A stretch of DNA of 37,635 nucleotides. It comes from a virus. How positions within the stretch are numbered: the stretch's first letter is position 1; each line of letters starts with the position of its first letter. The position numbers and the translations under genes were made by a program. The notes under the pieces are model-generated. The model worked only from the letters and a program-made list of their open reading frames with translations. It searched no databases and had not been told where the DNA came from. Positions 16,613-35,991 of this stretch are shown here, piece by piece. The stretch is taken from IMG/VR virus record IMGVR_UViG_3300020469_000108, positions 1 through 37,635 of that record; one strand, given 5' to 3'.

Positions 16613-17229
16613 TCTTCTACGATAGAAAACTTATATTTGTACACTTACCCAGGACTGCTGGATCTTTAATCGAGAAGTCTATTACTAATACTTACACTGG
16701 GAATTTTTTAAACCCTAAACACTTTGAAGCGTACGATTATAAAACTGTATATCCGGAGGAATGGGAATCCTTCTATAAGTTCGCTTGGGTTAGAAACCCC
16801 TTCGACTGGTGTGTTAGTTTAGCGGTTAGGTTCGACTGCCCCCTGGATACTCTTTTAGGAGAGTTCGAATCGAGACCTAATATATGGCAAGCCTTTAGAT
16901 CGGCTCCCAGGTGGTCTCAGAAGTTGCCCATGTCTAACGCTATTGATGGTGTTGATTTTGTTGGTAAGTTCGAAACCTTAGAGTCAGACTATAAGATCCT
17001 CCAGGATAAGTTTGACTTACCGGATCTATTGATAAACGAGCAATTTAAAAAAACGGAAGGGCGTGACCTAGACTACAAGTCTTATTATACCGACTACGAA
17101 GATCAACACCGCATTGAGGCAATCGAACGGATATTTGAAAAAGATCTCCAAAATTTTGGGTATACTTTCGAAAACGGAATTGTTAGAGAAAAGTTCGAAA
17201 GACGAATGGAACAAGGCAGCGATGTATAA
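16609..17229 (+). CDS. Sulfotransferase-like protein
   Basis: A 206-residue protein with the two PAPS-binding signatures of the carbohydrate sulfotransferase fold. The 5'-phosphosulfate loop is IFVHLPRTAGSLIEKS (residues about 9-24). The 3'-phosphate motif is FAWVRNPFDWCVSL (about 58-71, with R62 and the serine of CVSL). Downstream KFETLESDYKIL and Y...Y..DLQNFGYTF match the usual ends of this family. It would transfer sulfate from PAPS to a glycan, of host envelope or virion. It is coupled to the DUF6321-like gene by ATGA. Activity and substrate are inferred. Confidence 0.8.
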   Translation: MIFYDRKLIFVHLPRTAGSLIEKSITNTYTGNFLNPKHFEAYDYKTVYPEEWESFYKFAWVRNPFDWCVSLAVRFDCPLDTLLGEFESRPNIWQAFRSAPRWSQKLPMSNAIDGVDFVGKFETLESDYKILQDKFDLPDLLINEQFKKTEGRDLDYKSYYTDYEDQHRIEAIERIFEKDLQNFGYTFENGIVREKFERRMEQGSDV

Positions 17230-19088: not shown

Positions 19089-22000
19089 ATGGCAACCGCA
19101 AAAGTAAGTGGAACTAAGACATCCCTCCTCGACTCAGTAAATACTGGGATGAGTGTCCTGGGAGAAACTCCTCTATCGGCATTAAGTACTGGTACGATCC
19201 CTCCGACTGAGAATGTAGTACGCTTAGTTATTGCTGAAGTGAATAACGATGTTAATGCAAAAGGCTGGTGGTTCAATACCAGTGGTAATAGTATTACCTT
19301 CGATGATATGACTAATACATCGACTACTTTCGACACAGATACACCGGAAGAAGCCATACGATATATTACAATACGAGCAGCAAGAGTTGTTCAAAGCAGA
19401 TTCTTAGCAAATGAGAATCTCCACAAATTTACATACGAAGAAGAGTTGGCATCACTAGCAACTCTTATCCAGGCTAATGTTCGCCAGGGTGGATATAACG
19501 ATGATCTGTCGTTCGCATCTTATCCGGCTGAGCTCCGTCAATTAGGTATCGAAGAGCATACCTTCTTGCAGCAGCAGTCCGATGACAAAATCAACACCAT
19601 CCGACTAGCAACCGAACTAAAGCAAATTGGATTATTAACTGAGCAAACATCAACACAAGTTCAAGATACAGTAGTCAAAACAAACCAGGCTGCACTTATA
19701 GCTCAACAGAAGCTAACCGAGGTACAAACTACTCAGTTAGTTACTGCTCAGAAAAACAAAACAAACAGTGATAAAACTTTAACAGATAAAACGGCACTAA
19801 CCGAAGTTAAGAGAGCTTTGGATGTTGTTGCGGACACTACTTTAAAAGGTAAGCAAGGAGCTTTCGTAGACAAACAAGCTTTGACTGAGGTTAAGCAAGC
19901 TCTTGATATTGTTGCAGCCACTACCCTCAAAAACTCTCAAGGTGCTCTTGTAGACAAACAAGCTTTGACTGAGGTTAAGCAAGCTTTACTCCAGGTCTCC
20001 CAGGCAGCAAACCTAGACAAACAGGCTCTCACAGAAGTCAAAAGGGCTCTTGATATTGTTGCTGATACTACCCTTAAAGGTAAGCAAGGAGCTTTCGTAG
20101 ATAAGCAGGCTCTCACAGAAGTCAAAAGAGCATTAGACCTGGTAGCGGATACTACATTAAAAGGTCAACAAGGTGCCTTAATTGATAAGCAAGCGTTGAC
20201 CGAGGTTAAACAAGCTCTCGATGTCGCTGCTGCAACAACATTAAAAGGCGAACAAGGAGCTCTACTTAATAAGCAAGCGTTGACCGAGGTTAAACAAGCG
20301 TTACTACAAGTTTCCCAGGCAGCTAACCTGGACAAACAGGCGTTGACCGAGGTCAAACGAGCACTCGATATAGTAGCCGATACTACATTAAAAGGTAAGC
20401 AAGGATCTTTCATCGACAAACAAGCTCTGACTGAGGTTCAAAGAGCGTTAGATGTTGCAGCCGATGTTACATTAAAGGGTCAACAAGGTGCCTTAATTGA
20501 TAAGCAAGCTTTAACTGAAGTTAAACAAGCGTTACTCCAGGTCTCGCAATCAGCACTCCTCGATAAGCAAGCTCTTACTGAAGTTAAGAAAGCTCTCGAT
20601 GTTGTTAAAGACACCGAAGTTAAAGGGAAGCAGAAAGAATTAGTTGGATCTCAGAAGCTACTTACCGACAAACAGACTATAACTGAACAAGCTCAGAAAA
20701 CTTTCATTGATAAACAAGCTTTGACTGAAGTTCAAAGAGCTCTTGATGTTGCTGCTGATGTTGCTCTAAAAGCTAAACAAACCATCTTCGTTCAAAACCA
20801 GGCAGCCACTGAACTCAAGAGAGCTTTAGATATTGTCCAGGATACTGCACTTAAAGTTTCCCAGGCAGCACTCCTCGATAAGCAAGCTCTCACAGAAGTC
20901 AAAAGAGCCCTGGATGTTGTCCAGGATACTGCACTCAAGGTTTCCCAGGAGTCATTCATTAACAACCAGGCAGCCACCGAGCTGAAGCGAGCATTAGATA
21001 TAGTTGCAGATACTACACTAAAAGCATCTCAAAAAAGCCTAGTCGATAATCAGTCTGCTACTGAGTTAAAACGAGCATTAGATATAGTTGCAGATACTAC
21101 CATCAAAGGTAAGCAAGGCAATCTCATCGATAACCAGGCAGCCACCGAGGTTAAAGAAGCATTACGAAAGGTAGCAGAAACATCATTACTCAATGACCAG
21201 GAGCAGCTTGTAGTCAACCAGGCAGCCACCGAGCTCAAAAGAGCCCTGGATATTGTTGCTGATACTGCTCTTAAAAGCTCGCAAAAAGCACTATTAGATC
21301 AGCAGAAGCTAACAGAAGTAAAAGAAACTGTTAAGCGATCCGCTGATACTGCCCTGGTATTAAGAACAACAGATAAAACATTAGCAGAAAAAAGACTGGT
21401 TGATGCTACCGAGCTCAAGACTGATGCTGAATCTACTCTTTTAACTACTCAAACGAACAAATTAGAAGAAGAGCGAGCAGTCGGATCTACTGTTGAGTCT
21501 ACTTACTTTACCGGTATTCTAGCTGGCACCCAGGTTTCCTACCAGGACTTTGCTGCTGAACTTAGAATCCTAGGGTTCGAAGAGACAACCTTCCAGGCAA
21601 TGCCGGCAGCTAAAAAGAAAGAAGTCCTTATAGATGCAACTCAATACAGAAGTACTCAGATTAGTGGTGTTACTCATACTGGAGATTCATTACCTATTGT
21701 TAATAATATTCTAAGACTAATAGGAGAACCAAAAGTTTCCAATGTAAACAACAACTCATTAGGTATTGCTGCTTATGAAATGCTTACAGAAACCAATAAA
21801 GAGCTGCAAGCCAGGGGCTGGTGGTTTAATACACAAGCTGATGTAGAGTTAGAGAATGTTCTCCTGGAGAATGAAACCGACACTTATGGTGGAACCTTCG
21901 ACATAACTTCTCCGGCTACTGTCAGTTCAGCTGCTTCTACACATACTTGGACAAAGCTCAGTTCGACATCTGCCGGCAAACCAATGTATAGACATATAGA

Positions 22001-22598
22001 GTCCGATGGTAATGTGAATACTCTTTATTATAGTACTAATATTGGCGATGGTCTTGTAGCTGGGTGGATGCAATCAAGCCAGGAGGATCTCGCAAATGGT
22101 GGACTACCGAGTCAGTTTTCTACTGTTGATAGTACTCATCCCTGGATACTAGCAAACGGAGAGGTTGATCCCAAGTTTAGTAACTTTGTAGGTCTTACGG
22201 AGAGTAATCATGTTCCTATTGGTACAAACGCTATAACCGCTGAAGCCAATGATTATGATACAACCATTCAGACATCAAGCGGAGTAAAAGTATTGTATGA
22301 TTTCAAGGAGCAATCAGTTGCTAAATTCTCCGGTACGATCAAAGCCAAGGTTATATACCTAAGAGACTTTGATGATACACCAAGTAAGTACATAGAATAC
22401 CTCACTGTTCGTGTTGCTCTTCTTCTTACAGAATTGTATCCTAAGTCTACCATCGATGTTCAACGCTTACGCAAGTTAGAAGGAGAACTCGAAACTTATT
22501 TCAAAGACCGAGAGAATGACCAGGGTAATTACAATGTCTTTGACAGTTACGACGCTGCGAGTAGAGTCGGAATCAATAGGAATCACAACTTAGTCTAA
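19089..22598 (+). CDS. Giant tail tubular protein A (gp11-like) with central coiled-coil repeats
   Basis: A 1169-residue protein, against 196 for T7 gp11. Residues about 10-115 are gp11-like (AKGWWFNT, then IRYITIRAARVVQSRFL). Residues 143-180 hold a small domain (SYPAELRQLGIEEHTF). Residues 233-764 are about 20 heptad-based repeats of DKQALTEVKRALDVVADTTL type. Residues 816-855 repeat the small domain (SYQDFAAELRILGFEETTF), and about 865-1169 form a full gp11-like domain (VNNILRLIGEP, QARGWWFNT, IEYLTVRVALLLTELYP). So two gp11-like parts flank a long coiled coil. It should form the ring under the portal. The coil could project as a fibre. The start has GGAAATAATTT upstream. Confidence 0.85.
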   Translation: MATAKVSGTKTSLLDSVNTGMSVLGETPLSALSTGTIPPTENVVRLVIAEVNNDVNAKGWWFNTSGNSITFDDMTNTSTTFDTDTPEEAIRYITIRAARVVQSRFLANENLHKFTYEEELASLATLIQANVRQGGYNDDLSFASYPAELRQLGIEEHTFLQQQSDDKINTIRLATELKQIGLLTEQTSTQVQDTVVKTNQAALIAQQKLTEVQTTQLVTAQKNKTNSDKTLTDKTALTEVKRALDVVADTTLKGKQGAFVDKQALTEVKQALDIVAATTLKNSQGALVDKQALTEVKQALLQVSQAANLDKQALTEVKRALDIVADTTLKGKQGAFVDKQALTEVKRALDLVADTTLKGQQGALIDKQALTEVKQALDVAAATTLKGEQGALLNKQALTEVKQALLQVSQAANLDKQALTEVKRALDIVADTTLKGKQGSFIDKQALTEVQRALDVAADVTLKGQQGALIDKQALTEVKQALLQVSQSALLDKQALTEVKKALDVVKDTEVKGKQKELVGSQKLLTDKQTITEQAQKTFIDKQALTEVQRALDVAADVALKAKQTIFVQNQAATELKRALDIVQDTALKVSQAALLDKQALTEVKRALDVVQDTALKVSQESFINNQAATELKRALDIVADTTLKASQKSLVDNQSATELKRALDIVADTTIKGKQGNLIDNQAATEVKEALRKVAETSLLNDQEQLVVNQAATELKRALDIVADTALKSSQKALLDQQKLTEVKETVKRSADTALVLRTTDKTLAEKRLVDATELKTDAESTLLTTQTNKLEEERAVGSTVESTYFTGILAGTQVSYQDFAAELRILGFEETTFQAMPAAKKKEVLIDATQYRSTQISGVTHTGDSLPIVNNILRLIGEPKVSNVNNNSLGIAAYEMLTETNKELQARGWWFNTQADVELENVLLENETDTYGGTFDITSPATVSSAASTHTWTKLSSTSAGKPMYRHIESDGNVNTLYYSTNIGDGLVAGWMQSSQEDLANGGLPSQFSTVDSTHPWILANGEVDPKFSNFVGLTESNHVPIGTNAITAEANDYDTTIQTSSGVKVLYDFKEQSVAKFSGTIKAKVIYLRDFDDTPSKYIEYLTVRVALLLTELYPKSTIDVQRLRKLEGELETYFKDRENDQGNYNVFDSYDAASRVGINRNHNLV
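19785..21380 (+). repeat. Tandem coding repeat of 84 bp with 42, 63 and 105 bp variants
   Basis: Units start at residues 233, 261, 289, 310, 338, 366, 394, 415, 443, 471, 492, 527, 541, 569, 597, 625, 653, 681, 709 and 737 of the gp11-like protein. The unit lengths are 28, 21, 14 or 35 residues, always a multiple of seven. The consensus unit begins DKQALTEVKRALD. Hydrophobic residues follow a 3-4 pattern (L5, V8, L12, V15). The DNA of the units is diverged with many synonymous changes, so the array is not a recent slippage product throughout. A few units (about 19858-20125) are nearly identical. Confidence 0.95.
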
Positions 22599-23242
22599 TG
22601 CCTTTAATAAACCATAGTTTACCTAATCTAGTCCAGGGGGTATCCCAACAAGCGGATGCTCTACGATTTGAAGGTCAGTGCGACGCTCAAGAGAATGCCC
22701 TCAGTAGTATTGTCTCCGGTCTACAAAAAAGACCAAACACCAGGCATGTGGCTCGGCTGATTACCTCCGCAATAGCTAATGACTCTAAGGTTCACTTTAT
22801 CAATCGTGATAGTGATGAAAAGTTTGTGATAATCCATAGTGGTACAAAGCTCCGGATATTTAATTTAATTACCGGAGCCCAGGCTAAGATTAGAGCTCTC
22901 GATCAAGAATCAACAACATACGAAAATGAGTACGAGTTACAATCCGATGACTTTAATGCAGCCACTTCATCCGGAGAAAGGTTCTATGGTTACGCTGCTA
23001 ATCCTCGAAATGCTATTAAATTCTTAACAGTCTCAGATACTACATTTTTACTTAATACAAGAAAAGTGGTAGAAGAAAACTCCGTAAAGACTGCTGATTA
23101 CGAAAAGGCAGCCCTGGTGTTTGTAAAGCAAGGAGACTTTGGTAAAAACTACAATATTGAATTTGGTACTCCGACAACCTTTGCTCAAATATCTTTCGGA
23201 ATTAGAAATTATGTATACTCCTACGATGATGATGATGATTGA
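22598..23242 (+). CDS. Tail tubular protein B (gp12-like), N-terminal fragment
   Basis: 214 residues. MPLINHSLPNLVQGVSQQAD, AQENALSSIVSGLQKRPNT and RDSDEKFVIIHSGTKLRIF are the N-terminal signature of T7 gp12-type nozzle proteins (T7: 794 aa), but the ORF stops after YVYSYDDDDD. The aspartates come from a GAT repeat that also forms the start of the next gene in another frame. The rest of gp12 is encoded at 23823-26024, after an intervening oxygenase-like gene. It starts by TAATG overlap with the gp11-like gene. The protein may work as a two-chain nozzle, or this may be a disrupted gene. A sequencing error alone cannot explain a 580-bp insert. Confidence 0.88.
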   Translation: MPLINHSLPNLVQGVSQQADALRFEGQCDAQENALSSIVSGLQKRPNTRHVARLITSAIANDSKVHFINRDSDEKFVIIHSGTKLRIFNLITGAQAKIRALDQESTTYENEYELQSDDFNAATSSGERFYGYAANPRNAIKFLTVSDTTFLLNTRKVVEENSVKTADYEKAALVFVKQGDFGKNYNIEFGTPTTFAQISFGIRNYVYSYDDDDD

Positions 23243-23819
23243 TAATACAGTTACAGAAGCATTTAAAGGTATGATTGATACTCTATTTGAAGAATCAGAT
23301 AGAACATTCAAAGATGTTAGGTGGAACCCCACAAACAGAGACCTAGAGTCAATCCTATCAAAGGAAAATTTAGATACAATAATTGATAGGTATGGCGATA
23401 CTGCCTCTGCCAAGCATATACCAGGTAATGACAATCGAATCACTTTTGATAGGAGGATAGAAAACTTCGATTACCTGGAAGATGTTACAAACGCTATTGC
23501 TATGAGTATGGACATAGAACTCATAAGTTCGTCCGGTCTGTTTTGGTATCCCCCAGGTGGTTATTGTGGGTGGCACACTAACAACAATAGAGAGGGAGAG
23601 CGACTATATTTAGCCTGGGCTTACGAATCCAACAAAAGTTTCTTTAGAAAGTGGGATTCTGAAAAAAACGAAATTATAACCGAATGGGATAAAGAAGGAT
23701 TAAATATCCATCGTTTTACTGTATCAAAAGAAAACCCATGTTGGCACTGTGTTGGAAGCCACACAAACAGATTTAGTTTAGGATTTAACCTGGATATTAG
23801 AAAGGAAACAAAGGAATAA
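23226..23819 (+). CDS. 2OG-Fe(II) oxygenase-like protein inserted within gp12
   Basis: A 197-residue protein if translation starts at the first ATG of the ATGATGATGATG run (23226, 23229, 23232 and 23235 are all possible). FWYPPGGYCGWHTNNNREGE gives H117-x-N119, and WHCVGSHTNRFSLGF gives H174 and R182, the layout of the HxD...H...R facial triad of 2-oxoglutarate/Fe(II) dioxygenases, with asparagine in place of the usual aspartate. Similar WHTN...WHCV proteins occur in marine phages, as I recall. The function could be hydroxylation of a virion protein or nucleic acid. The HTN variant leaves activity uncertain. It separates the two gp12 ORFs. Confidence 0.65.
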   Translation: MMMMIDNTVTEAFKGMIDTLFEESDRTFKDVRWNPTNRDLESILSKENLDTIIDRYGDTASAKHIPGNDNRITFDRRIENFDYLEDVTNAIAMSMDIELISSSGLFWYPPGGYCGWHTNNNREGERLYLAWAYESNKSFFRKWDSEKNEIITEWDKEGLNIHRFTVSKENPCWHCVGSHTNRFSLGFNLDIRKETKE

Positions 23820-23822
23820 TTT

Positions 23823-26024
23823 ATGTCACATAGTACAACCGCATGGCACGATGTAAATATCGTTAACGCTTCGCAAGGGTACACCCAAGCACAGTGTAAT
23901 GCCCCTACGACTGCCTCTCCAGCTGGATTAGGATTACCAACTACTTATTCTAGGTTCGGAGTAACCTTCAACCTTCAATACCGAAACTTTACAGTTAATA
24001 ACCAGGGAGAAATAACCGCTGGGCAGGTATATGGAACACGAAAATCCGGTTCAACCGGAAGCAGCGGTACTGCTACTATAACTCTTTCAGCAGGTGCCGG
24101 AGCTGGGACTTCATACACTGACGATATGGGGTATGGAACTGTAACAGTTAGAACCGGAGAATCTACTTCCGGTGGTGGGTGTGCTGACGCAATAAATATC
24201 CAAAAAGCTTTAAGTAACGAGGGTGAAGCCTTTATGGTGGCTGCTGACACTACTTTCCCAACATCAGTTTCCGGTGCATTTGTTGTCACAAGAGTAGGAA
24301 CAACAACAAGATTTGCTGGCGTAGATGGACAAGATTTTCCATTTTCAGTATCTGATGGTCTTGGGGGCAGTGGTCTCGGAGGTGTTTACAAAGAAGTAAA
24401 CAGTATTGACGATTTACCGGTTACTGCACCGCACAATTTTAAAGTTAAGATTATCGGAGACCTGGAACTAGCCCAGGACGATTACTATGTAAAATTCTCT
24501 GTTGCTGGAGATGGAAACTTTGGAACCGGAACCTGGGAAGAAACAAACGGATTTAGAGAATCCCTAGGGCTAAATCAACAAACCATGCCTTTGAAGATCA
24601 TAAGTAAAGGTAAGAATGCCCAAGGTGTAGATCTATTTGATGTTAATGTTGCCTACTGGGATAACCGCCAGGCTGGAGATAACGACAGTAATCCTCATCC
24701 TAGTTTTGTCGGAACTACGATCAACAACATGTCTTGGTTTAAAAACCGATTAGTAATGCTTACTGATGACACTGTTGTCATGTCGGAAGCCGGAGAGCCT
24801 TATAACTTTTATAAGGTAACTGTAACTCAGCTGCTGGACTCAGCTCCTATTGATGTTACTGTTGCTACAAACTCAATCACTAATCTTAGGTATGCAGTAG
24901 GATACCAGGAGAACCTGGTGTTGTTTTCTGATAGAGAACAATTTGTTCTTCGAGGTGGGCAGCTGCTATCAAATGATACTGTATCTATATCTCCTATTAC
25001 CAACTTTGAGATTAACCCTAAAGTTAGTCCTATTGCCCTAGGAGCCTACTTATACTACCCTTTCAATCGAAATGACTTTAGTGGTGTTCATCAATACTTT
25101 GTAAATGCGAACACTGATAACTATGATGCCCAGGAAATAACTGAGCATGTGCCTTCTTACTTACCTAGTAATATATCAGTAATAAAAGGATCCTCAGTTG
25201 AGAATATCCTTATCGCAATGAGCCACGACGAGCCGACAACTCTATATGTATATCGGTACTTTATGTCCGGAGGTAGTCGGATATTAAGCTCCTGGAGTAA
25301 ATTTAAGTTTGATCACTGCTGCACTAACATTGTGGACTTTGAGTTTATTGAAGGTACTTTGTATTTGATAATGATTAAAGCTGGAGAGACGCATCTACTA
25401 AAGATGCCTTTTCAAACTGTTCTTAGTAATCCGGAAAATGTGGGATCGCCTAGTGCAAACGAGCCTAATATATACTTAGACTTTGCATCTGATGCGAATC
25501 TTACCGGAACTGCTGCTCAAAGCTTTAACCTGGGGTTTAAGATTACTGCTACCCAGGAAATGGAAGCTTACAGGGCTGACACTGGAGCAAGTGCTTATAC
25601 TTATGGAGGAATTGCTAATGCTGGTAATTTATCAGTTACCCCAGGTGCTGCCGGCTCCGGTAGACATATAGTTGGTATTCCTTATACCATGAAATATACT
25701 TTCTCAGAGCAGTTATTTAAAGCTCCAGCTGGCACCGGAAAGACACCTACCAATTCAGCTAAGCTCATGATTAGAAGCGGAACTGTATTCTTTGATAAGA
25801 CTAATGCCATCGATATTAAGGTCACACCGGCTTTAAGAGGTGAAACAACACAATCATTTTCCCAGGGAGGAACAACGATTGATGATGGAAAATTTAAGTT
25901 TGGAGTCTTGGCACCGGCTGATAATACAGTCATAACATTAGAAAATAGCGGAGCGTTACAGTCTGACATACAGTCAGCAGAGTTTGAGTCTTATGTCGCA
26001 CCAAGATCTGAGAGAATACGATAA
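23823..26024 (+). CDS. Tail tubular protein B (gp12-like), C-terminal fragment
   Basis: 733 residues with their own ribosome binding site (AAGGAATAATTT then ATG), the same form used by neighbouring virion genes. Residues 1-95 are Gly/Thr/Ser-rich beta sequence with no gp12 counterpart that I know. From about residue 100, ADAINIQKALSNEGEAFMV, then VKIIGDLELAQDDYYVKF and MPLKIISKG, it continues the beta-propeller nozzle of T7 gp12, including NNMSWFKNRLVMLTDDTVVM and QENLVLFSDREQFVLRGG. Together with the upstream fragment the total is 947 residues. It should form the hexameric nozzle at the tail tip. Confidence 0.88.
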   Translation: MSHSTTAWHDVNIVNASQGYTQAQCNAPTTASPAGLGLPTTYSRFGVTFNLQYRNFTVNNQGEITAGQVYGTRKSGSTGSSGTATITLSAGAGAGTSYTDDMGYGTVTVRTGESTSGGGCADAINIQKALSNEGEAFMVAADTTFPTSVSGAFVVTRVGTTTRFAGVDGQDFPFSVSDGLGGSGLGGVYKEVNSIDDLPVTAPHNFKVKIIGDLELAQDDYYVKFSVAGDGNFGTGTWEETNGFRESLGLNQQTMPLKIISKGKNAQGVDLFDVNVAYWDNRQAGDNDSNPHPSFVGTTINNMSWFKNRLVMLTDDTVVMSEAGEPYNFYKVTVTQLLDSAPIDVTVATNSITNLRYAVGYQENLVLFSDREQFVLRGGQLLSNDTVSISPITNFEINPKVSPIALGAYLYYPFNRNDFSGVHQYFVNANTDNYDAQEITEHVPSYLPSNISVIKGSSVENILIAMSHDEPTTLYVYRYFMSGGSRILSSWSKFKFDHCCTNIVDFEFIEGTLYLIMIKAGETHLLKMPFQTVLSNPENVGSPSANEPNIYLDFASDANLTGTAAQSFNLGFKITATQEMEAYRADTGASAYTYGGIANAGNLSVTPGAAGSGRHIVGIPYTMKYTFSEQLFKAPAGTGKTPTNSAKLMIRSGTVFFDKTNAIDIKVTPALRGETTQSFSQGGTTIDDGKFKFGVLAPADNTVITLENSGALQSDIQSAEFESYVAPRSERIR

Positions 26025-26493
26025 TTATTATGCTAGGCACAATAGGATCCAGGTAGTTACTGCTGCCCAGGAACATATTGCTGCCATTGCGGAAAACCTT
26101 CGTCCTATGGATGCTATTGAGATAGCGTGTATGGGAGGAGATCCGGCTGAAGCTTTATCCAGGGGAATCGAGGAGAGCCATTGTGCTTTAACAGTCCTGG
26201 ACGATGATGATGTTCCGATCGCCATGTTTGGTGTAAATGCGTGTGGTAATCACATGCACTCGATATGGTGCCTGGGAACCCCAGGTGTCGAAGAAAATTT
26301 AAGAGACTGGATAAGATACTCCAGGAAATATGTAAATAGTATCAGTGCTCCTTTCGGAGTTACATTCAACTTTGTTCATCATGAAAATGAAAAAGCTATA
26401 AGATGGCTTAGATTTTGTGGTGCTCAATTCATTAACGAAAGAAAATTCAATAACCAAAAATTCTACGAGTTTATTATATGTGTGAACCTATAA
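25993..26493 (+). CDS. Internal virion protein A (T7 gp13-like, GNAT-like)
   Basis: 166 residues from ATG 25993. The frame is open to a TTG at 25984, which is less likely. The segment VPIAMFGVNACGNHMHSIWCL, then ISAPFGVTFNFVHHENEKAIRWLRFCGAQF, matches the phage gp13 family with an acetyltransferase-like fold. T7 gp13 is needed for assembly of the internal core but is not known to acetylate anything. It overlaps the gp12 fragment by 32 bases and the gp14-like gene by 16 bases. Confidence 0.8.
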   Translation: MSHQDLREYDNYYARHNRIQVVTAAQEHIAAIAENLRPMDAIEIACMGGDPAEALSRGIEESHCALTVLDDDDVPIAMFGVNACGNHMHSIWCLGTPGVEENLRDWIRYSRKYVNSISAPFGVTFNFVHHENEKAIRWLRFCGAQFINERKFNNQKFYEFIICVNL

Positions 26494-27002
26494 GTATGGG
26501 AATAGCGATGGGTGGTATGCAAGCCATGTCATCATATTCCGGACAAAAGCAATCTGCAAGAGCCCAGGCAAGATCCCAGGCTGCTGCGAGTAAGCAAGAA
26601 AGAGAACGCCTAGGATACGAAGCAAGTAGTATCCGTAGGCAGCAGCAGCAAGACATGATCTCTAAGACTCAGCGTCTCCAGGCTGCACAACAAAAATCTA
26701 GGGCTGCCCAAGCAAGATCAAGGGTTATGGCTGGCGAAAATGGTGTTAGTGGATTAAGTGTTAATAATGTTATGAATGAAATAATCCGCAAAGAAGCAGC
26801 ATACAACTTCAGTGAATCTAAGAACGAGGATATGAAAGACATCAACACAAACATGCAGCTACAAGAAGCAGCTATGCGTTACCGAGGAAACCACTTGAGA
26901 ATCAACAAGCCAATTCAGCAGCCGGATCTATTCGGTTCATTGATTGGTGGTGCCTCAACTGGTATTGGTGTCGCTACTGGTTTAAAAAGTGCTGGATTTT
27001 AA
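26478..27002 (+). CDS. Internal virion protein B (T7 gp14-like)
   Basis: 174 residues (T7 gp14: 196). The N-terminus MCEPISMGIAMGGMQAMSSY and the long Q/A/R-rich helix (QKQSARAQARSQAAASKQER) followed by AYNFSESKNEDM are the gp14 pattern. In T7, gp14 is ejected and forms the outer-membrane part of the trans-envelope channel. The glycine-rich C-terminus (LIGGASTGIGVATGLKSAGF) could insert in membrane. Confidence 0.82.
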   Translation: MCEPISMGIAMGGMQAMSSYSGQKQSARAQARSQAAASKQERERLGYEASSIRRQQQQDMISKTQRLQAAQQKSRAAQARSRVMAGENGVSGLSVNNVMNEIIRKEAAYNFSESKNEDMKDINTNMQLQEAAMRYRGNHLRINKPIQQPDLFGSLIGGASTGIGVATGLKSAGF

Positions 27003-27015
27003 TAAGGAATAATTT

Positions 27016-29226
27016 ATGGCTAGAGAAAAAATAGATCCCAATATCGGACAGATCGGTTTAAGAAACCAGGTGCAAAGAGCCGGACAATATACTGTAAATG
27101 CCCAGGCAACACCAAAAACCAATACTGCTTTGCAGTTTGCCCAGGCTATGTCCAGGATGCCTGGTATTATTAACCAACTAGGTACCCTGGGAGAACTCCA
27201 GGCTGAGGAAGATCTACTAGAGCTCACTAATCCAGCTGAAGTAGATAAAGCAATGACCAATAATGATAAAGGTACAATGCGAATCTTGGGGTACAATCGT
27301 AAATACCAGGAAGGTGTTGTTGCTAAATATCTAACCAACAACGCACCGGAGTTTGCTAAGGTTTGGGATGGTTATGCAAATGACGAGGCAATGCTAGGAA
27401 AGGATCCCCAGGAACTTGTAGAAGCTATGGATGCTAAGAAAGCCGAGTTCATGGATGGATTATTGAATGACTTTGGTGGAAACAAAGGCAGAGAAAGAGC
27501 TATCCGAGCACTAGGAACCGCAGTTGTTGACAAGTTATCAACATCAACAGAAGCCAAAATTATACAGAACCAGGAAGCTCAGTCTATGATGTTCCTGGAT
27601 GCGAACTTTGCTAACAATGTTGGTAGTGAAAGCATGACCATAAAAGAGTCGCTAGACCTTTATAGAACCGAGCTTAGCGAGATGCAAGTCCACTCATCTA
27701 AGGAGATAAAAGAGAAGATGATTGGCACTGTTGAAAGCTATGTAGAAACTCTTGTTCAGAACAAAGAATACGATAAAGCTGAAGAAGTTATTAACAATTC
27801 TTCTGTTTACCAACTGTACGGATCTAAGGATCCAAATAAACCAGGGGCAACCCTAGGTGGAGCAGTGGCTGATAAGCAAAGATTTGGAGTGCTTTCCGAT
27901 AGTATTCAGACTGCTAAAGATAAAGATGACGAAGAATTTGCAGATAATTCTAAAGGAGTAAGACGAGATGTTCTCCTGGGAATAGAAAACATAGTTAATC
28001 CGGATGTAGACGAAAATGGATATAAGACTGGATTAGAAAGAGTCCTAGTCAGAGCCGGATATACCCAGGAAGAAGCTGAGACAGAAACCGCCTCGATCGA
28101 GGGGAAGCACGACATCAAAGGGTTTATATCCTGGTATTCAGCTCTCGCTAATAAAGAGACTAATGAAGTCAAAAGAGATCTACTCACAGATCAGCTTGGA
28201 ATTGTGCGTAAAACAGAGAAGGAATACTTTTCCGGAGGGGCAGCTACAATAGGAACATTCACTAAGGACGAACTAGCTACCCTGGAGAATGATATGAGAG
28301 AGTATATGACTAGTAATCCAAACCAGTCATCGAGTATTCTTAACTACCCTAACTCAGTAAATGGACGAAGAATGTCCTCTGCGGATCCGGATTACCTGGA
28401 TTTGGTTAAGAAGATCAGCAACGAATTTAGATGGGCAAGCTCAGAGACACAGATGCAGCCTATTGTTCTAGCTACGCAGCGTAATATACTCGCAGATCCG
28501 AATATACAAGCCGGAGGATTTGGACTTGAATATTCAACCGAGATTCGATCCACACTCCAGGAAGAAGCTGCTTCTCTTTGGTCTCAGTCTAGTGGAGATG
28601 TAAATATCTTTAACGAAAAGATGGCTGCGAGGGCTACGGAGCTCCAGGGTCAGTTTATTCAAGAAGCTACAACCAGGTCATCTCTTGATGCTATTTATGA
28701 TCAAGATCTCTCTGCTGAGATGACAAAAGACTCTTTGAAGATAATGAAGAGCGAAGGAAAGGGAAACATGGAGCCCAGTGATGGTTTTGAGAGTTTCGAT
28801 AGAGATTTCAGATCTTTTTCAAATATGAAAGGATTTGGCGAAAACCCAAAAGCCTACCAAAGATTTATCGATGTAATCACGACAGATCGGAAGAACATCG
28901 CTAATACTAATCTTAAAGATAAAGATAAAGTAAGAGCCACAAGAGCACACCTAGTAACCTATGGTTTCCAGGATATGAGTCAGTTCGACATCAACATCCT
29001 AGCAGACAATGGAGTAGGCTTTGGAGATATACCTTTAGGACAACGAGTTCGAACTGCGTTAGATGATGGTTTAGGAGCATTCCAGGCAAGAGACGCTGGA
29101 GAGGATTTAACCCCAGAGCAGCAGCAATCTCTCAAAACCTTTGAAGACTTTGGTTTCGATGGTGTTGATGATTTCAATACAATACTCGAAGCACAACGAG
29201 TAAGAATCAGCCTCATTAACAGATAA
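27016..29226 (+). CDS. Internal virion protein C (T7 gp15-like)
   Basis: 736 residues, close to T7 gp15 (747). It is largely helical with few cysteines and begins MAREKIDPNIGQIGLRNQVQ. Its length and its place between the gp14-like and gp16-like genes identify it. Local sequence is divergent from T7. In T7, gp15 is ejected into the periplasm and forms the channel with gp16. The ribosome binding site is AAGGAATAATTT, as for other virion genes. Confidence 0.8.
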   Translation: MAREKIDPNIGQIGLRNQVQRAGQYTVNAQATPKTNTALQFAQAMSRMPGIINQLGTLGELQAEEDLLELTNPAEVDKAMTNNDKGTMRILGYNRKYQEGVVAKYLTNNAPEFAKVWDGYANDEAMLGKDPQELVEAMDAKKAEFMDGLLNDFGGNKGRERAIRALGTAVVDKLSTSTEAKIIQNQEAQSMMFLDANFANNVGSESMTIKESLDLYRTELSEMQVHSSKEIKEKMIGTVESYVETLVQNKEYDKAEEVINNSSVYQLYGSKDPNKPGATLGGAVADKQRFGVLSDSIQTAKDKDDEEFADNSKGVRRDVLLGIENIVNPDVDENGYKTGLERVLVRAGYTQEEAETETASIEGKHDIKGFISWYSALANKETNEVKRDLLTDQLGIVRKTEKEYFSGGAATIGTFTKDELATLENDMREYMTSNPNQSSSILNYPNSVNGRRMSSADPDYLDLVKKISNEFRWASSETQMQPIVLATQRNILADPNIQAGGFGLEYSTEIRSTLQEEAASLWSQSSGDVNIFNEKMAARATELQGQFIQEATTRSSLDAIYDQDLSAEMTKDSLKIMKSEGKGNMEPSDGFESFDRDFRSFSNMKGFGENPKAYQRFIDVITTDRKNIANTNLKDKDKVRATRAHLVTYGFQDMSQFDINILADNGVGFGDIPLGQRVRTALDDGLGAFQARDAGEDLTPEQQQSLKTFEDFGFDGVDDFNTILEAQRVRISLINR

Positions 29227-29230
29227 TAAT

Positions 29231-32200
29231 ATGTCAAATACACCCTTCCAAGACTTGCTGATTGAGGATCCAACCTCGTCAACAAGCGATGCACCTAAAA
29301 CTCCAGTAAATATCTATGAGCAGCTGATAACTCAAAATCATACCAGGGAGCAGATCCTGGATGAAGAGTATGTTGATGATGATCTTTCTCCGGTAAAAGA
29401 TGTATCCGGAGGTCAAATAGCCGGATCTATTGTAACTGAAGTAGGAGTTGGTATAGCTTCCGAGGCGGTGGCAGCGAAAGCTGGTATAACTGCTGGTGCT
29501 ACAACCACTGCTGCCCTGGCTGCAACCGGAGTTGGTGCTTTGATTGCATTACCTGCTGGTGCCGTTGTTGGTGGTATTGTTTATTTCGGAACTAAATTTA
29601 CTATGGGATATGGAGCTAGTGTTGCTGCTCAAAAGCTCATAGAACAACAAGATGATATTTCCCAAGGAAGAGCGTTGATTGCTGGTGCAGCCAACTTGAT
29701 ACCAGGAGGTAAAACAATTCAAGGGGGTTCTAAAGCTATTAAGTATGGAACTATTGGTCTTCGAGAAGGTGGTAAAGGTGCAGCCATCGGTGTGGCTGAT
29801 GTCACTGCTAGGGCAACCATCGATGAAGGTAGACTGCCTACCCTGGAAGAACTTAGGTTCGGTGCTACTGTTGGTGGTGCTACCGGTGGTGGTTTAATGG
29901 TCGGTGGATCCGCACTGAAAGATGCCGGTGCCTTTGCTGCTATATCCAAGCAAACAAAAACACTTTGGGGCAAAATGAGTGGGAAGAACGCTGAGGAGAT
30001 TGATGCGATGCTTAAAGGCAAAGAGATCTACCAAGAAGAGTTTACCGATATGCTCCGAGAAATGGATGATGTTGCTAAAGGTAAACCGGCTGGTAGACCT
30101 TGGCAGAAAGACACTTTCAAGAAAGATTTTGATGATGCAGTCGAGCAGAAGAGACTAAACGAACAAGAAGTTGCTGATGCAGCCCTCCAAGGAAAACAAG
30201 GTTCGTTGTTGTTACTCAATAAGAACTTTAAGGAGATGACTGTTGATGAGTTATCTAAATATGATACAGACGATCTAAGGCAAATAGGGGACAAGCTCGA
30301 TGAGATTCCGGAAATAGCAGCAGCCGAAAAGCAGATTGAAACAGAAACTCCTACCTGGAAAGATGCAGAAAATCAAAAAGACTGGACTAAAGAAGAAGGA
30401 TTTAGTGAGTCCTGGCAGCAGCGTCGAGGATGGTCTGACCAGGTTGACACTTTGTATGGCAGCGGTGCTGCGATCCAGGAGAAACAAGCAATAATTATAG
30501 CTGGTGGATCTGCATCCGGTAAGTCCGGTATTGCTGACCAGTTGTCTGCCGAGGGTGGTTATAAAATTATTGACTCAGATTTTGCAAAAGAATTGATACC
30601 GGAATACCAGGGAGGCAAAGGTGCTAATGTAGTTCATGCCGAAAGTAAGGAAATAAATGAACTAGTAATCGATCGAGCCTTAGATAATGGAGATAATATC
30701 ATCTTACCGGTGGTAGGTAGCTCCGGATCTTCTGTATCACAACGGATCAAGGATTTAAAAGACGCTGGGTATAAAGTCGCTTTTATGTATGTTGACATCC
30801 CAGCAGACTTAGCCCAGGTTAGAAATTTAAAAAGGTATAATCGTACTGGACGATTTGTACCACCATCATATATAAGGAGCAGTTATGGAGCAATCAAAAA
30901 CAACATCAAGACCGGACAACGAGCAGCCGACGAATATCAAATCCTCACAAACGAAAACAACTATGTCCAAGTCAAAGAGTCCTCAAAAGGGTTCAACAAA
31001 CTTGTACGAGGAGATGATGTCGATGGGGGAAGAAATCGAATTGAGAGCGATTACCAAGCGGATGGAGGCACGAAAAGCCGCCCAGGTCGAGAAGAAATCC
31101 ACGAAGCAATAGACGAAACGAAGAAGCTTCTGAAGCACCGAGATGAGGGCAAAGGAGCTGAAGTTACCAGGTATGTAAAAGGTCTGTATCGTAAAGTTGC
31201 TCGTAATTTCATGAGTGATGCTACTGATCTCTTTAAGAAGGGAGATATAACTTTAGCAAGAACTCTGTATCAGCAGCTAGATGATTACATCAAGTTCGAT
31301 AATTTAATATCAAGAAAAGATTATGCTGATGGATCCTCATTAGCAGCAAACAAGCTAAACGCAGATTCGCATACTTATCAGTCCGGTATAACGACTGATG
31401 GGAATCGCAGAACCCAGGATCTCCTGGAGTTCAAAGAGATGCTGCGTCAATACATCGATGATCCGGTCGGAGCTAAGCTCAACCAGGAGCTCGGAGAGAA
31501 TGTAACCGAGGAAGCTCGAAAGAGATCCGGTGGTGTCGCTAAGTCCAGGGCAGAACGCCTGGATGAGATGCAAGCTCACTTTTCCAAGTCAATGGTCAAG
31601 AAGAGACAAGGTGCATTACAGAATGTAATCGATACCTACTTTGCTACCAGGATGTCGCAAATGCTCAATCAGACTAAGACTGCATTTGTTGGTGTTCCTT
31701 CGGCAGCAGCTATGTCAATAATTAGACCAGTTATAAATACACCTTATGCTTTACGCCAGGCAATCGGTCAAAAGAACCTGGGGCTACAAAAGAAAGCAAT
31801 ATACGCTATGAGCGAATTGATTGCTACCCAGGAGTATATTCACATGATTACCAGGCATGGTTTCCAGGTTGGTCGCAGCGTGTTAAACACAATCAAGAAT
31901 AAAGGAGAAAGTAGCTTCTTATATCGAGATCGTCACTCATACAAAGTAAATGAGATAGCCGATGCGAACGAACTTTCACACACTGCTAAGACTCGTATGA
32001 GAGAAGCAGAACGAAGAGTTGACGCTAAGAATGCCAGGGGAGCTATGAAAACAGTCATGAATCTTCGAAAGAACATCATGAATGCTCCTATCACAAAAGT
32101 ACCTATGTTCTTGTTTGATTATGGTTTATCTCTAATCGGTGGACTAGAAGAGATCTCTCTGATTGCCCACTCACTTAGAAAAGCCAGGGCAGAGGGTATT

Positions 32201-33913
32201 CGTAAAGGTGTAACCTCCGGTCGAGAGGACTGGAACAAGGCAGCCGAAGAGTATGTCGAGTCTACCATCGATCGCAGCTCCGGAAGAATGCAAGCTAAGT
32301 ATGATCCGGAGTTCAAAGAGATCTTTAACGAAGCTCGTAGAAATCACTTTAGAAACATGGACTTAGATCCTAACGACATTCGTAGGGATGTTGTTGATGG
32401 TGCAGTTGAATCTCTTAACAAGCTTTCAAACTCTCCTAATGAAGCCGGCTTGATTGCCAGGTTCCTATTTCCATTTATTGGCGTGCCATTCCGAGCATTA
32501 GGGATGACAACCGACTACATAGCTCCGCTAAAAGCAGCAAGTATGGGTATGGAGAAAGTAGGTAGAGGAATCTCGAAGCTAGAAGGACGAGGTGGTAAAG
32601 GTACAGTTTCATCGTTTACCGGTAAATACAACAAGCGTATTGGAGATCTACAACAAGAGATTGCTGATGAAACTAAGAATTTGAAAAGTGCAGATCCTTC
32701 AACTGCCAGGGCAGCTAAGCAAAACATAGCGAGAGCGAAGAACGATCTGAAGAATGTTAAAGATCTACAAATGCAAAAAGACTATGAAGATCTTGGGATC
32801 CTGGCTATCGGCACCGGTATGTTTGCCCTGGGCTATCAAATGGCTGAACAAGGTCAAATCACTGGAACTGATGCCTGGATGAATAAAGATCAGAAAAGGG
32901 CAGCATCAAATGTCCAGGGAGCACCTAAGTCTTACAAGATGTTCTTTGGGGAAGGCAGCTATGATTTCAAATACCTGGATCCGGTCAAAGGAGCCCTTGC
33001 CCTGGGAGCTGATTACTATCGCTGGAAACAAACCTTAGATGGAGATCCATTCGAAGCTAAGAATGCAATGGAACTTGCCAGGTTTACTACTGCATTTGCG
33101 TCCTCGATCTTTGTAGAAATGCCTACATCCAGGGGCGGTAAAGCTTTAATGAATGTATTCTCAAATGTTGAATCAGTTAGAGAAAGAGGTGTAGGAGAGA
33201 TCTTAGGATCCACTGTTCCTTTTCCAGCTGAGATCCGGAGAGCACAAACATTCACAAATGAGTTTGTTGATGATCCCCTCCAGGGGAACCCATTCCAAAA
33301 CTCTATTATGAGATCCCTAGGACAAACCGCAGAGAACTACCGGTTAACTGTCCTGGGAGAGCCTAAGAAGAGAGACGAACAAACTGTATCTAGTTATGTT
33401 ACTCCATTCGGTAAACAGATCCCAGTTCAGAGAGAAGCTATTGATGATGTTCTCCTGGAAGACGCTTACTCGTATAATACAGTGGCACCTATCCAGCCTA
33501 CATTCAATGGAATCAAAACCAAAGAGTTTGTTAATGAGGATGGTTTAACTCTGTATTCAGTGTACGGAGCTCAGATGTCTACCATGAAAGTAGGAGGTAG
33601 GACATTAAGGCAGCGGTTAAACAAGCTAGTTAAACAGACCGCATTCGTTACTGCATATAATCGAGGATATTATGACGATCCTAATAGCGGAACCAAAGTA
33701 AACGATGGGATCCAAATGATTAAGGATATTATATCGGAGCACAGGAAGGCTGCCAGGGAGTACATATTGTATAACCCTAAAGCTAAAGCTTCACTACAAG
33801 GATTTGTTAATGATGATGGGCAATCAATCTATTCAACCATTAACATGAGAAAAGCAACCGGTGGCGAGAAAACTCAAAACCTTTTAGAAGAACTATCAAT
33901 CCCAGGAAATTAA
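29231..33913 (+). CDS. Internal virion protein D (gp16-like) with zeta-toxin-like kinase domain
   Basis: 1560 residues (T7 gp16: 1318). Residues about 58-135 are Gly/Ala-rich and membrane-like (AALAATGVGALIALPAGAVV). Residues about 415-620 form a P-loop kinase of zeta-toxin type: QAIIIAGGSASGKSG with K431, then YKIIDSDFAKELIPEY, HAESKEINELVIDRALDNGD and IILPVVGSSGSSVSQRIKDL. The remainder is long helical gp16-like sequence, including RFLFPFIGVPFRALG. The lytic transglycosylase domain that opens T7 gp16 is absent. It should be ejected first and span the inner membrane. The kinase could act on UDP-sugars in the infected cell, as zeta toxins do, or on another substrate. That role is inferred. 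Confidence 0.85.
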   Translation: MSNTPFQDLLIEDPTSSTSDAPKTPVNIYEQLITQNHTREQILDEEYVDDDLSPVKDVSGGQIAGSIVTEVGVGIASEAVAAKAGITAGATTTAALAATGVGALIALPAGAVVGGIVYFGTKFTMGYGASVAAQKLIEQQDDISQGRALIAGAANLIPGGKTIQGGSKAIKYGTIGLREGGKGAAIGVADVTARATIDEGRLPTLEELRFGATVGGATGGGLMVGGSALKDAGAFAAISKQTKTLWGKMSGKNAEEIDAMLKGKEIYQEEFTDMLREMDDVAKGKPAGRPWQKDTFKKDFDDAVEQKRLNEQEVADAALQGKQGSLLLLNKNFKEMTVDELSKYDTDDLRQIGDKLDEIPEIAAAEKQIETETPTWKDAENQKDWTKEEGFSESWQQRRGWSDQVDTLYGSGAAIQEKQAIIIAGGSASGKSGIADQLSAEGGYKIIDSDFAKELIPEYQGGKGANVVHAESKEINELVIDRALDNGDNIILPVVGSSGSSVSQRIKDLKDAGYKVAFMYVDIPADLAQVRNLKRYNRTGRFVPPSYIRSSYGAIKNNIKTGQRAADEYQILTNENNYVQVKESSKGFNKLVRGDDVDGGRNRIESDYQADGGTKSRPGREEIHEAIDETKKLLKHRDEGKGAEVTRYVKGLYRKVARNFMSDATDLFKKGDITLARTLYQQLDDYIKFDNLISRKDYADGSSLAANKLNADSHTYQSGITTDGNRRTQDLLEFKEMLRQYIDDPVGAKLNQELGENVTEEARKRSGGVAKSRAERLDEMQAHFSKSMVKKRQGALQNVIDTYFATRMSQMLNQTKTAFVGVPSAAAMSIIRPVINTPYALRQAIGQKNLGLQKKAIYAMSELIATQEYIHMITRHGFQVGRSVLNTIKNKGESSFLYRDRHSYKVNEIADANELSHTAKTRMREAERRVDAKNARGAMKTVMNLRKNIMNAPITKVPMFLFDYGLSLIGGLEEISLIAHSLRKARAEGIRKGVTSGREDWNKAAEEYVESTIDRSSGRMQAKYDPEFKEIFNEARRNHFRNMDLDPNDIRRDVVDGAVESLNKLSNSPNEAGLIARFLFPFIGVPFRALGMTTDYIAPLKAASMGMEKVGRGISKLEGRGGKGTVSSFTGKYNKRIGDLQQEIADETKNLKSADPSTARAAKQNIARAKNDLKNVKDLQMQKDYEDLGILAIGTGMFALGYQMAEQGQITGTDAWMNKDQKRAASNVQGAPKSYKMFFGEGSYDFKYLDPVKGALALGADYYRWKQTLDGDPFEAKNAMELARFTTAFASSIFVEMPTSRGGKALMNVFSNVESVRERGVGEILGSTVPFPAEIRRAQTFTNEFVDDPLQGNPFQNSIMRSLGQTAENYRLTVLGEPKKRDEQTVSSYVTPFGKQIPVQREAIDDVLLEDAYSYNTVAPIQPTFNGIKTKEFVNEDGLTLYSVYGAQMSTMKVGGRTLRQRLNKLVKQTAFVTAYNRGYYDDPNSGTKVNDGIQMIKDIISEHRKAAREYILYNPKAKASLQGFVNDDGQSIYSTINMRKATGGEKTQNLLEELSIPGN
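30885..31112 (+). CDS. Overlapping ORF inside the gp16-like gene, 75 aa
   Basis: A 75-residue ORF in the +1 frame of the gp16-like gene, over the codons just after its kinase domain (residues about 552-627). TAAGGAG lies five bases before the ATG, a better ribosome binding site than many real genes here have. The product is S/T/K-rich at first, then a charged helix (YEEMMSMGEEIELRAITKRM). There is no homology I can name. It could be a real overprinted gene, for example a partner of the kinase domain, or a chance ORF. Confidence 0.35.
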   Translation: MEQSKTTSRPDNEQPTNIKSSQTKTTMSKSKSPQKGSTNLYEEMMSMGEEIELRAITKRMEARKAAQVEKKSTKQ

Positions 33914-34084: not shown

Positions 34085-34321
34085 ATGACATTAGACGATA
34101 AGCTCAATCAGCTCCAAGAGATACTGATAGATGAGATGATCAGAAGGATCAGTACCGGAGAAGCTACCGCTGCCGACTTAGGTGCAGCTAGGCAACTCCT
34201 TAGAGACAATGGTATCCAGGCAGTTGCCCAGGAGGGATCTCCGCTGCATGACCTGGTAACATCATTACCTTTCCAAGATGAAGCAGATAAAATTGTAAAT
34301 AGTATAGCAGCATCCGTCTAA
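34085..34321 (+). CDS. terS: Small terminase subunit (TerS, T7 gp18-like)
   Basis: 78 residues (T7 gp18: 89), directly before the large terminase with a TAATG overlap. LIDEMIRRISTGEATAADLGAARQLLRDNGI is the typical helical core of small terminases of T7-like phages. It recognises the DNA to be packaged and stimulates TerL. The ribosome binding site is AAGGAACAATT. Confidence 0.85.
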   Translation: MTLDDKLNQLQEILIDEMIRRISTGEATAADLGAARQLLRDNGIQAVAQEGSPLHDLVTSLPFQDEADKIVNSIAASV

Positions 34322-35991
34322 TGGAGATACCGGAGGAAATAAAGGATTTTAGAAACTTCCTATACTTAGTATGGAAGCAGCAGAACCTTCCGGATCCTAC
34401 TCCAATACAGTACGAAATAGCCGACTACATGCAGCATGGTGCCAAGAGGGCTATCATCGAGGGATTCCGAGGTGTTGGTAAGTCCTGGATCTGTTCTGCC
34501 TTCGTAGTCCACCAGTTACTCCTGGATCCAACAAAGAACATTCTTGTTGTTTCTGCTTCGAAGACCAGGGCTGATGACTTCAGTACCTTTACGCTGCGGT
34601 TAATTCATGAGATGCCGGTATTAAAACACCTCATACCAAAAGCTACGCAGCGTTTCTCTAAGATCTCCTTCGATGTCGCACCGGCTCCAGCTTCACATGC
34701 ACCTAGCGTCAAATCTTTAGGTGTTAGTTCGCAGCTAACCGGAGCTCGTGCAGATATAATTGTTGCTGATGATATTGAGGTACCTTCAAACTCAGCTACT
34801 CATGGTTTACGCTGGAAGCTTTCAGAACAAGTAAAAGAGTTCGATGCTATCCTCAAACCTGGAGATAGCTCGAAAGTTATCTTCCTGGGAACACCTCAGA
34901 CCGAGGATTCAATTTATAATTTACTCCTGGAGCGTGATTACCGCTGCAAGATTTGGACTGCTCAGTACATCGATGAGAGCACAAACGAGAATGTCTACGA
35001 CTCCCAGGTGTCTAATCTATGCGTAAGCAATAGTGACCTAGGTAAATCCACCGAGCCCACCAGGTTCTCGGACATAGATCTCGAAGAAAGAAAGTTATCC
35101 TATGGTAGATCCGGATTCAGCATGCAGTTCATGTTGAACACCAGGAGATCCGATATGGATCGCTACCCCCTACGCCTGGTAGATCTTATAGTCATGAACC
35201 TGGATAAAGAACTGGCACCGGAGAAGCTCGTATGGGCTCAATCTCCGGATCTAGCCTGGGACTCTAGTGTTCCTAATGTTGGATTCAGTCATGACCGGTA
35301 CTATCGTCCGTTCAAACAGATTGGGGATCATGTGCAGTACACCGGATCCGTCATGAGTATTGATCCCTCCGGTAGAGGTAAGGATGAGACTGCCTGGGCA
35401 ATCGTTAAGATGCTCAATGGTTTCCTCTATGTTGTTGATGCTGGAGGCATGCAAGGAGGATATGAAGAAGATGTTCTAAAATCCCTTGCGATAAAAGCCA
35501 AGGACTACTCGGTCAACGAGATAGTTGTCGAAAGTAACTTTGGCGATGGAATGTTCAATCAGATATTCAAGCCTATCCTCTCTAAGATATACCCATGTAC
35601 TATCTCCGAGGTAAGACACAATACCCAAAAAGAGAAACGAATCATCGACACTTTGGAACCAGTTATGAATCAACATAAACTCGTTGTCGATCCCAGGGTC
35701 ATCCAAAATGATTTTGAATCTGCCCAGGGGTATTCCCAGGATTCCCAGCTCAAATATCAACTGTTCTATCAAATGTCCAGGATCACCAGGGAACGAGGGG
35801 CTATCAGTCATGATGACAGATTGGACGCTCTATCGATGGCAGTCAACTATTGGGTTGAACAGATGTCACAAGATGCAAGCGACAAAATAGTAGACCGGAA
35901 GAACGAGCTGCTATTTGAGGAGATGGAAAAGTTCAAGGATGCCTTTTACAAGAACAAAAAGGGGTCTAGGAGCGTCCATGTATGGATGTAG
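34321..35991 (+). CDS. terL: Large terminase subunit (TerL, T7 gp19-like)
   Basis: 556 residues (T7 gp19: 586). The N-terminal packaging ATPase has Walker A GFRGVGKSW (K54) and Walker B DIIVADDIE. The C-terminal RNase H-like nuclease has SIDPSGRGKDETAWAIVK, IVVESNFGDGMF and SHDDRLDALSMAVNYW, holding the metal-binding aspartates. It pumps DNA into the procapsid and cuts concatemers at the terminal repeat. The start overlaps TerS. No Rz-type gene lies between the terminase genes, unlike T7. Confidence 0.97.
   Translation: MEIPEEIKDFRNFLYLVWKQQNLPDPTPIQYEIADYMQHGAKRAIIEGFRGVGKSWICSAFVVHQLLLDPTKNILVVSASKTRADDFSTFTLRLIHEMPVLKHLIPKATQRFSKISFDVAPAPASHAPSVKSLGVSSQLTGARADIIVADDIEVPSNSATHGLRWKLSEQVKEFDAILKPGDSSKVIFLGTPQTEDSIYNLLLERDYRCKIWTAQYIDESTNENVYDSQVSNLCVSNSDLGKSTEPTRFSDIDLEERKLSYGRSGFSMQFMLNTRRSDMDRYPLRLVDLIVMNLDKELAPEKLVWAQSPDLAWDSSVPNVGFSHDRYYRPFKQIGDHVQYTGSVMSIDPSGRGKDETAWAIVKMLNGFLYVVDAGGMQGGYEEDVLKSLAIKAKDYSVNEIVVESNFGDGMFNQIFKPILSKIYPCTISEVRHNTQKEKRIIDTLEPVMNQHKLVVDPRVIQNDFESAQGYSQDSQLKYQLFYQMSRITRERGAISHDDRLDALSMAVNYWVEQMSQDASDKIVDRKNELLFEEMEKFKDAFYKNKKGSRSVHVWM

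Follow-up and report, generated by a model that had tools for sequence, protein, structure and literature searches.

A zeta-superfamily kinase domain in a gp16-type internal virion protein of a marine T7-like podophage

Introduction

What does a kinase domain do in a protein encoded at the gp16 position of a T7-like podophage? Ejection proteins of the T7 type are known to serve in DNA translocation and to include no enzyme beyond one that cuts the wall. After its ejection, T7 gp16 refolds and crosses the inner membrane, with residues 411-1118 thought to be cytoplasmic, and its N-terminal transglycosylase domain has been described as phage-specific (PMC8954989). An earlier note on this DNA had recognised zeta-toxin motifs in a gp16-like protein and proposed that a kinase acting on UDP-GlcNAc is ejected as a possible early weapon. 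Here we analysed the domain, its carrier and its relatives.

Results

The kinase carrier occupies the gp16 slot

The window, i.e. the whole stretch of DNA analysed, comprises an entire virus record (37,635 bases). It encodes a T7-type RNA polymerase, primase-helicase, DNA polymerase, portal, capsid, nozzle, gp14, terminase and integrase, and is a marine T7-like (Autographiviridae-type) podophage genome. No RNA families or tRNAs were found in it. Judged by its terminase, its nearest named relative is the Mediterranean phage MedDCM-OCT-S45-C18 (Ayaqvirus, 69%), followed by Roseobacter and Pelagibacter phages.

The kinase carrier lies in the gp16 (internal virion protein D) slot, after gp14 and a gp15-sized ORF, for which no convincing family match was obtained, and before the terminase (Table 1). 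In Roseobacter and Pelagibacter phages, the proteins of that slot are homologues of its C-terminal half; the profile of this gp16 module was built from 25 gp16 proteins of relatives. In hhalign the carrier family matched internal virion protein D of Pelagibacter phage HTVC121P / Fussvirus (99.9%, E 4.9e-33) and CRP-171 gp36 (99.9%), and tblastn matched the carrier to Fussvirus S30C28 (E 3e-4). The carrier shares with T7 gp16 the gene slot after gp14/gp15, the size and the hydrophobic segments, but it has an extra kinase, no recognised transglycosylase (no SLT match in Pfam) and no significant match to T7 gp16 by profile against the PDB or by hhalign, although divergence may hide homology. The label gp16-type thus rests on gene position and on the annotated marine relatives. 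Two hydrophobic segments upstream of the kinase form a candidate inner-membrane region, by analogy with TMH I of T7 gp16 (PMC8954989). In the hydropathy scan, hydrophobic stretches resume from residue 817 on, and the kinase sits between.

Table 1. Positions of the features in the window and, in the last row, in three other contigs
Feature	Position	Strand	Residues or remark	Evidence
gp14-like internal virion protein	26478..27002	+		Pfam T7_gp14 E 6.2e-24
gp15-position internal virion protein	27016..29226	+	736 aa	position and size only
gp16-type internal virion (ejection) protein, kinase carrier	29231..33913	+	1560 aa	one uninterrupted ORF
Two hydrophobic segments	29417..29587	+	63-81 and 101-119	hydropathy scan
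Conserved lead-in GWSDQVDTLYGSGA before P-loop	30428..30469	+	LYGxGA-type
Kinase module, zeta superfamily	30443..30979	+	405-583, Pfam core 417-576	Pfam, subfamily alignments A4/A7, AF2
P-loop AGGSASGKSG	30500-30529	+	Lys431 (zeta Lys46)	Gly and Lys invariant in A7
Motif YKIIDSDFAKEL	30560-30595	+	second of four quoted motifs
Equivalent of zeta catalytic base Asp67	30578..30580	+	Asp450	1gvn alignment; invariant in A7
Motif HAESKEINELV	30635-30667	+	third of four quoted motifs
H-x-E-S motif	30635..30646	+	His469 and Glu471	His and Glu invariant in A4
Motif NIILPVVGSSGSS	30695-30733	+	fourth of four quoted motifs
PVVG acceptor-site loop	30707..30718	+	replaces zeta EGTG	P and G invariant in A4
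Equivalents of zeta Arg158 and Arg171	30833..30853	+	Arg535 and Arg541	both nearly invariant in A7
Conserved C-terminal gp16 module of marine clade	32375..33772	+	1049-1514	profile i-E 1.1e-21
Terminase large subunit	34321..35991	+	used to find relatives	phrog_38 E 6.6e-113
Virion structural protein downstream of kinase protein	L126 10735-13218, L141 3915-6389, L143 9753-12377

The domain belongs to the zeta superfamily

The four motifs quoted in the earlier note all lie, in the order given there, in the single open frame of the carrier, within residues 424-501. Pfam Zeta_toxin (PF06414) matched residues 417-576 (hmmscan, E 2.4e-21) with 76.5 bits against a curated cut-off of 22.3, which is far beyond chance. 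The next Pfam match of the domain, AAA_33 (E 4e-7), lies 14 orders lower. Chloramphenicol phosphotransferase was rejected as a candidate family, the Pfam CPT match (E 0.018) being under its cut-off.

An alignment of the subfamily profile to zeta 1gvn placed Lys46, Asp67, Arg158 and Arg171 of zeta at Lys431, Asp450, Arg535 and Arg541 of the window protein; Asp67 acts as the catalytic base in zeta (PMC3062530). The Asp and Arg were not lost in homologues: together with the P-loop they are retained at 22-47% identity (A7), which argues for an active enzyme. The LYGxGA lead-in is common to the window protein, L105, L125, L096, L107, L094 and others. As the earlier note had claimed, the protein at the gp16 position holds a zeta-like kinase. 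Its ATP-binding and catalytic residues are intact; judged from its residues, the domain is apparently a working enzyme with a predicted kinase activity.

The acceptor site differs from that of zeta toxins

Streptococcal zeta contacts UDP-GlcNAc through Asp67, Glu100, Thr118, Arg120 and Thr128 (PMC3062530), and one of these five, the Asp, is conserved in the subfamily. In the window protein the positions of Thr118, Arg120 and Thr128 are taken by Val495, Ser497 and Arg505, and Glu477, at the position of Glu100, is not conserved across the subfamily, which instead conserves a PxVG (or PxLG) loop and an H-x-E-S/A motif (A4). Phosphorylation of UDP-GlcNAc, as the earlier note proposed, is therefore not supported. 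A genuine zeta toxin, one that blocks wall synthesis upon entry by phosphorylating UDP-GlcNAc, would agree with the catalytic Asp and Arg and with zeta/PezT being the closest family in both fold and sequence. However, besides the replaced contacts, a Thr118 to Val change rendered PezT non-toxic (PMC3062530), and the PezT equivalog of NCBIfam gave no match in the window protein, so that we regard this explanation as unlikely. The gonococcal zeta toxin, a Gram-negative enzyme with a different binding mode, phosphorylates several UDP-sugars (PMC5923241), and for this reason UDP-sugars are still possible acceptors for the divergent pocket. No antitoxin gene was recognised among the immediate neighbours of the carrier, which are the gp15-position ORF on one side and, immediately ahead of TerL, a small ORF with 52% identity to the same-slot ORF of L011. 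In comparison with zeta/PezT (PF06414; Streptococcus pyogenes zeta 1gvn/3q8x, pneumococcal PezT 2p5t), the fold, P-loop, Asp, two Arg and lead-in helix are in common, whereas the domain in the window is fused within a virion protein, has a PxVG instead of an EGTG loop and does not retain the UDP-GlcNAc contacts.

Structural comparison places zeta ahead of polynucleotide kinases

An AlphaFold2 model of residues 400-610 was built with 23 aligned sequences; its pLDDT was ~87-98 (10-residue blocks) through model residue 150 and <65 thereafter. Foldseek ranked zeta 1gvn_B first (E 1.4e-8), and a second aligner gave Z 17.6 for zeta, 16.2 for PezT, 15.6 for Clostridium polynucleotide kinase and 14.7 for AvrRxo1. 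The best structural match is hence zeta and not a different P-loop family, although it leads polynucleotide kinase by only 2 Z units. When solved structures were searched with the A4 subfamily profile, zeta 1gvn also came first (E 9e-13), followed by Pnkp1 (2.2e-10) and PezT (2e-6), and a single-sequence search (phmmer) gave polynucleotide kinase 4gp6 (E 1.7e-4) and zeta (E 1.3e-3). These scores make a polynucleotide-kinase-like domain, repairing the ends of phage DNA or host tRNA during entry, the next candidate. However, the helix leading into the P-loop has a counterpart in zeta (aligned from residue 11), PezT and AvrRxo1 but not in the polynucleotide kinases, the aligned residues of the model number 181-192 for the former three and 142-159 for the latter, and the distance between Zeta_toxin and AAA_33 in Pfam points the same way; we consider such an end-repair function improbable. 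AvrRxo1 is a delivered kinase related to zeta, described in PMC5087710 as a type III effector making 3'-NADP and 3'-NAADP; its likeness here is one of fold.

The kinase recurs in other podophages

A Zeta_toxin match was found in none of the 52 records reached via the terminase or its named relatives, and none of 40 gp16-size proteins of close relatives matched the kinase subfamily profile, which indicates that the kinase is not required for infection as such. When viral contigs were searched with the kinase domain alone, there were no matches. Members of the subfamily were found via a degenerate DNA pattern for GYxVxxxYVDxP, a profile search, alignment A5 and further scans. Five other podophage contigs (L105, L125, L126, L141 and L143) carry the same kinase in the core gene block.

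A second T7-like phage is represented by L105 (capsid 39%, nozzle 29%, with ORFs in the gp14 and gp15 slots as judged by order), and its gp16-slot protein contains the kinase at residues 465-640, with 38% identity to the window protein over residues 333-643. Residues 193-393 of the L105 protein are homologous to the N-terminal gp16 module of the window's relatives (profile i-E 6.9e-23). Neither protein alone shows both end modules, but since L105 matches the N-terminal and the window the C-terminal module, the kinase lies between the places of both modules in both phages. In L125, L126, L141 and L143 the kinase protein follows the nozzle or internal virion genes; L126, L141 and L143 represent a second podophage lineage. 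A virion structural protein of ~830-875 aa (phrog_684 in L126) comes after the kinase protein in these three contigs (Table 1). A ParB domain suspected by eye upstream of the kinase in L125/L126 was not matched by a three-sequence ddrB-ParB profile; in L126 the region in question matched phrog_10691 as well as the C-terminal portion of portal family phrog_21. In a tree of 24 kinases the window and L105 grouped together (88/93), the deeper order was not resolved, and a single clade of four podophage kinases was weakly disfavoured (p-AU 0.04).

The absence from the 40 gp16-size proteins, which indicates dispensability for gp16 assembly, might suggest that the domain is a passive structural insert or a relic with no catalytic role. 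Such a relic would hardly be expected to retain all ATP-binding and catalytic residues while the rest diverged to 22-47% identity, in a frame free of stops or frameshifts, and we give this explanation slightly less credence still than end repair. That mis-assembly joined the kinase to gp16 is scarcely credible: the sole 98%-identical contig, L001, begins at residue 797 (covering 797-1560) and so misses the kinase, but G+C is even along the carrier gene and the independent contig L105 has the kinase, with its homologous flanks, in the same slot.

Beyond these podophage contigs, the kinase occurs in giant phage proteins alongside SLT, N6 methylase, helicase, ddrB-ParB, MuF_C, LPD38 or ART-PolyVal domains, and in bacterial genomes PxVG-subfamily kinases occur in proteins of ~300-700 aa; plasmids gave only one weak match. 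A PxVG-type kinase is also found as a short gene in Vibrio and Photobacterium islands (L132 9590-10567, L134 6980-7855). The L132 and L134 islands also have homologous integrases and other genes in common, so that the standalone kinase sits in a conserved mobile-element setting.

Comparison with known zeta-like kinases

Zeta-like kinases on MuF and polyvalent proteins have been reported, with wall weakening and help to entry already suggested (Iyer 2017, PMC5512222), and MuF toxins are thought to be delivered together with DNA (PMC5576092). These kinases are of the same superfamily, and the large proteins in which they reside are likewise presumed to enter with the DNA; the PxVG subfamily itself extends to giant proteins with ddrB-ParB, MuF_C, LPD38 and ART-PolyVal. 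In contrast to the carriers of PMC5512222, the main text of which contains neither the word gp16 nor ejection, the window carrier is a gp16-type ejection protein of a T7-like podophage. Polyvalent proteins are defined by at least two disparate enzyme domains per polypeptide, as found in the carriers L104, L107, L094 and L096, whereas only one enzyme domain was recognised in the window protein. Their other hallmark, delivery with the DNA, would for the window protein follow from its gp16 slot. The minor head protein of cyanophage PSS2, the zeta-ParB protein of HCTV-5 / HVTV-1 and gp57 of mycobacteriophage Phrappuccino likewise hold zeta within a large structural-region protein, but their carriers are MuF or unknown, their acceptor loops are of DGT- or DKV-type and identity is 24-32%. 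In the open-access literature, no earlier description of a T7-type internal virion protein with a zeta kinase was found. The gp16-type ejection-protein carrier and the PxVG subfamily are new, while MuF/polyvalent zeta kinases with delivery to the host had already been proposed (Iyer 2017).

Discussion

We consider it reasonably probable that the core protein is ejected and that its zeta-superfamily kinase becomes cytoplasmic and phosphorylates a small acceptor early in infection. The kinase module has the hydrophobic N-terminal part of this protein on one side and its conserved C-terminal gp16 module on the other. By analogy with T7 gp16, the carrier would be packed in the capsid core, would pass through the tail when a cell is infected and would then refold across the inner membrane. 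That it is ejected into the cell is suggested by gene position, by homology to annotated internal virion proteins and by the T7 literature; since T7 gp16 has no detectable sequence homology to the carrier, ejection and topology rest on position and annotated relatives. The kinase follows the first hydrophobic region of the carrier, as the cytoplasmic gp16-C does in T7 (PMC8954989). By this analogy, the region past the first membrane segment, including residues 405-583, would reach the cytoplasm, where ATP is present. There the domain may phosphorylate a small acceptor, the likeliest candidates being UDP-sugars or other nucleotide-linked metabolites, with a few copies per virion acting ahead of any phage gene expression. 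The presumed benefit would be a block of envelope synthesis or of host or prophage defence, and the kinase could hypothetically serve as the weapon that the earlier note envisaged. If the kinase faces the cytoplasm, the ejectosome of an abundant group of marine phages would be a device for delivering enzymes that act on the metabolism of the host during the first minutes of infection. In addition, the analysis defines a zeta-like subfamily with a distinct acceptor loop that is common to podophages, giant polyvalent phage proteins and bacterial genomes.

More tentatively, the gp16 centre in marine T7-like phages may be an exchangeable cargo bay, in which varied enzymes (PxVG kinase, NADAR + DUF4326, DUF7831) lie between fixed end modules and are delivered by the ejectosome to the cytoplasm before expression, the PxVG kinase using an acceptor other than UDP-GlcNAc. 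The gp16-slot protein of L072 (1281-8123) has weak central NADAR and DUF4326 matches, both under their curated cut-offs; that of L024 (2809-8592) and of one more relative has a strong central DUF7831, and that of L077 (2396-8389) a very weak central nucleoside deoxyribosyltransferase. Since few gp16-slot proteins show other central domains, the cargo bay is a lead and not a result.

Other features of the genome

A tyrosine-type integrase is encoded at 3611-4471 of this T7-like genome, and likewise in MedDCM-OCT-S45-C18, which suggests possible lysogeny. The nozzle (gp12) gene is split within 22598-26024: profile positions 1-170 fall in ORF 22598-23242 and 141-794 in ORF 23823-26024. Between these parts lies a 226-aa ORF (23139-23819) that by eye resembles a 2-oxoglutarate oxygenase and has no Pfam match; the nozzle of L105 is intact. 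The tail tubular protein (gp11) ORF, 19089-22598, encodes 1169 aa as compared with the usual ~200. Its Pfam Tube domain is fragmented, the best match being at 870-930, and tandem repeats of 84 bases occupy 19959-21164 of the gene. A sulfotransferase-family match (16609-17229, E 3.8e-6) lies between the scaffold and capsid genes.
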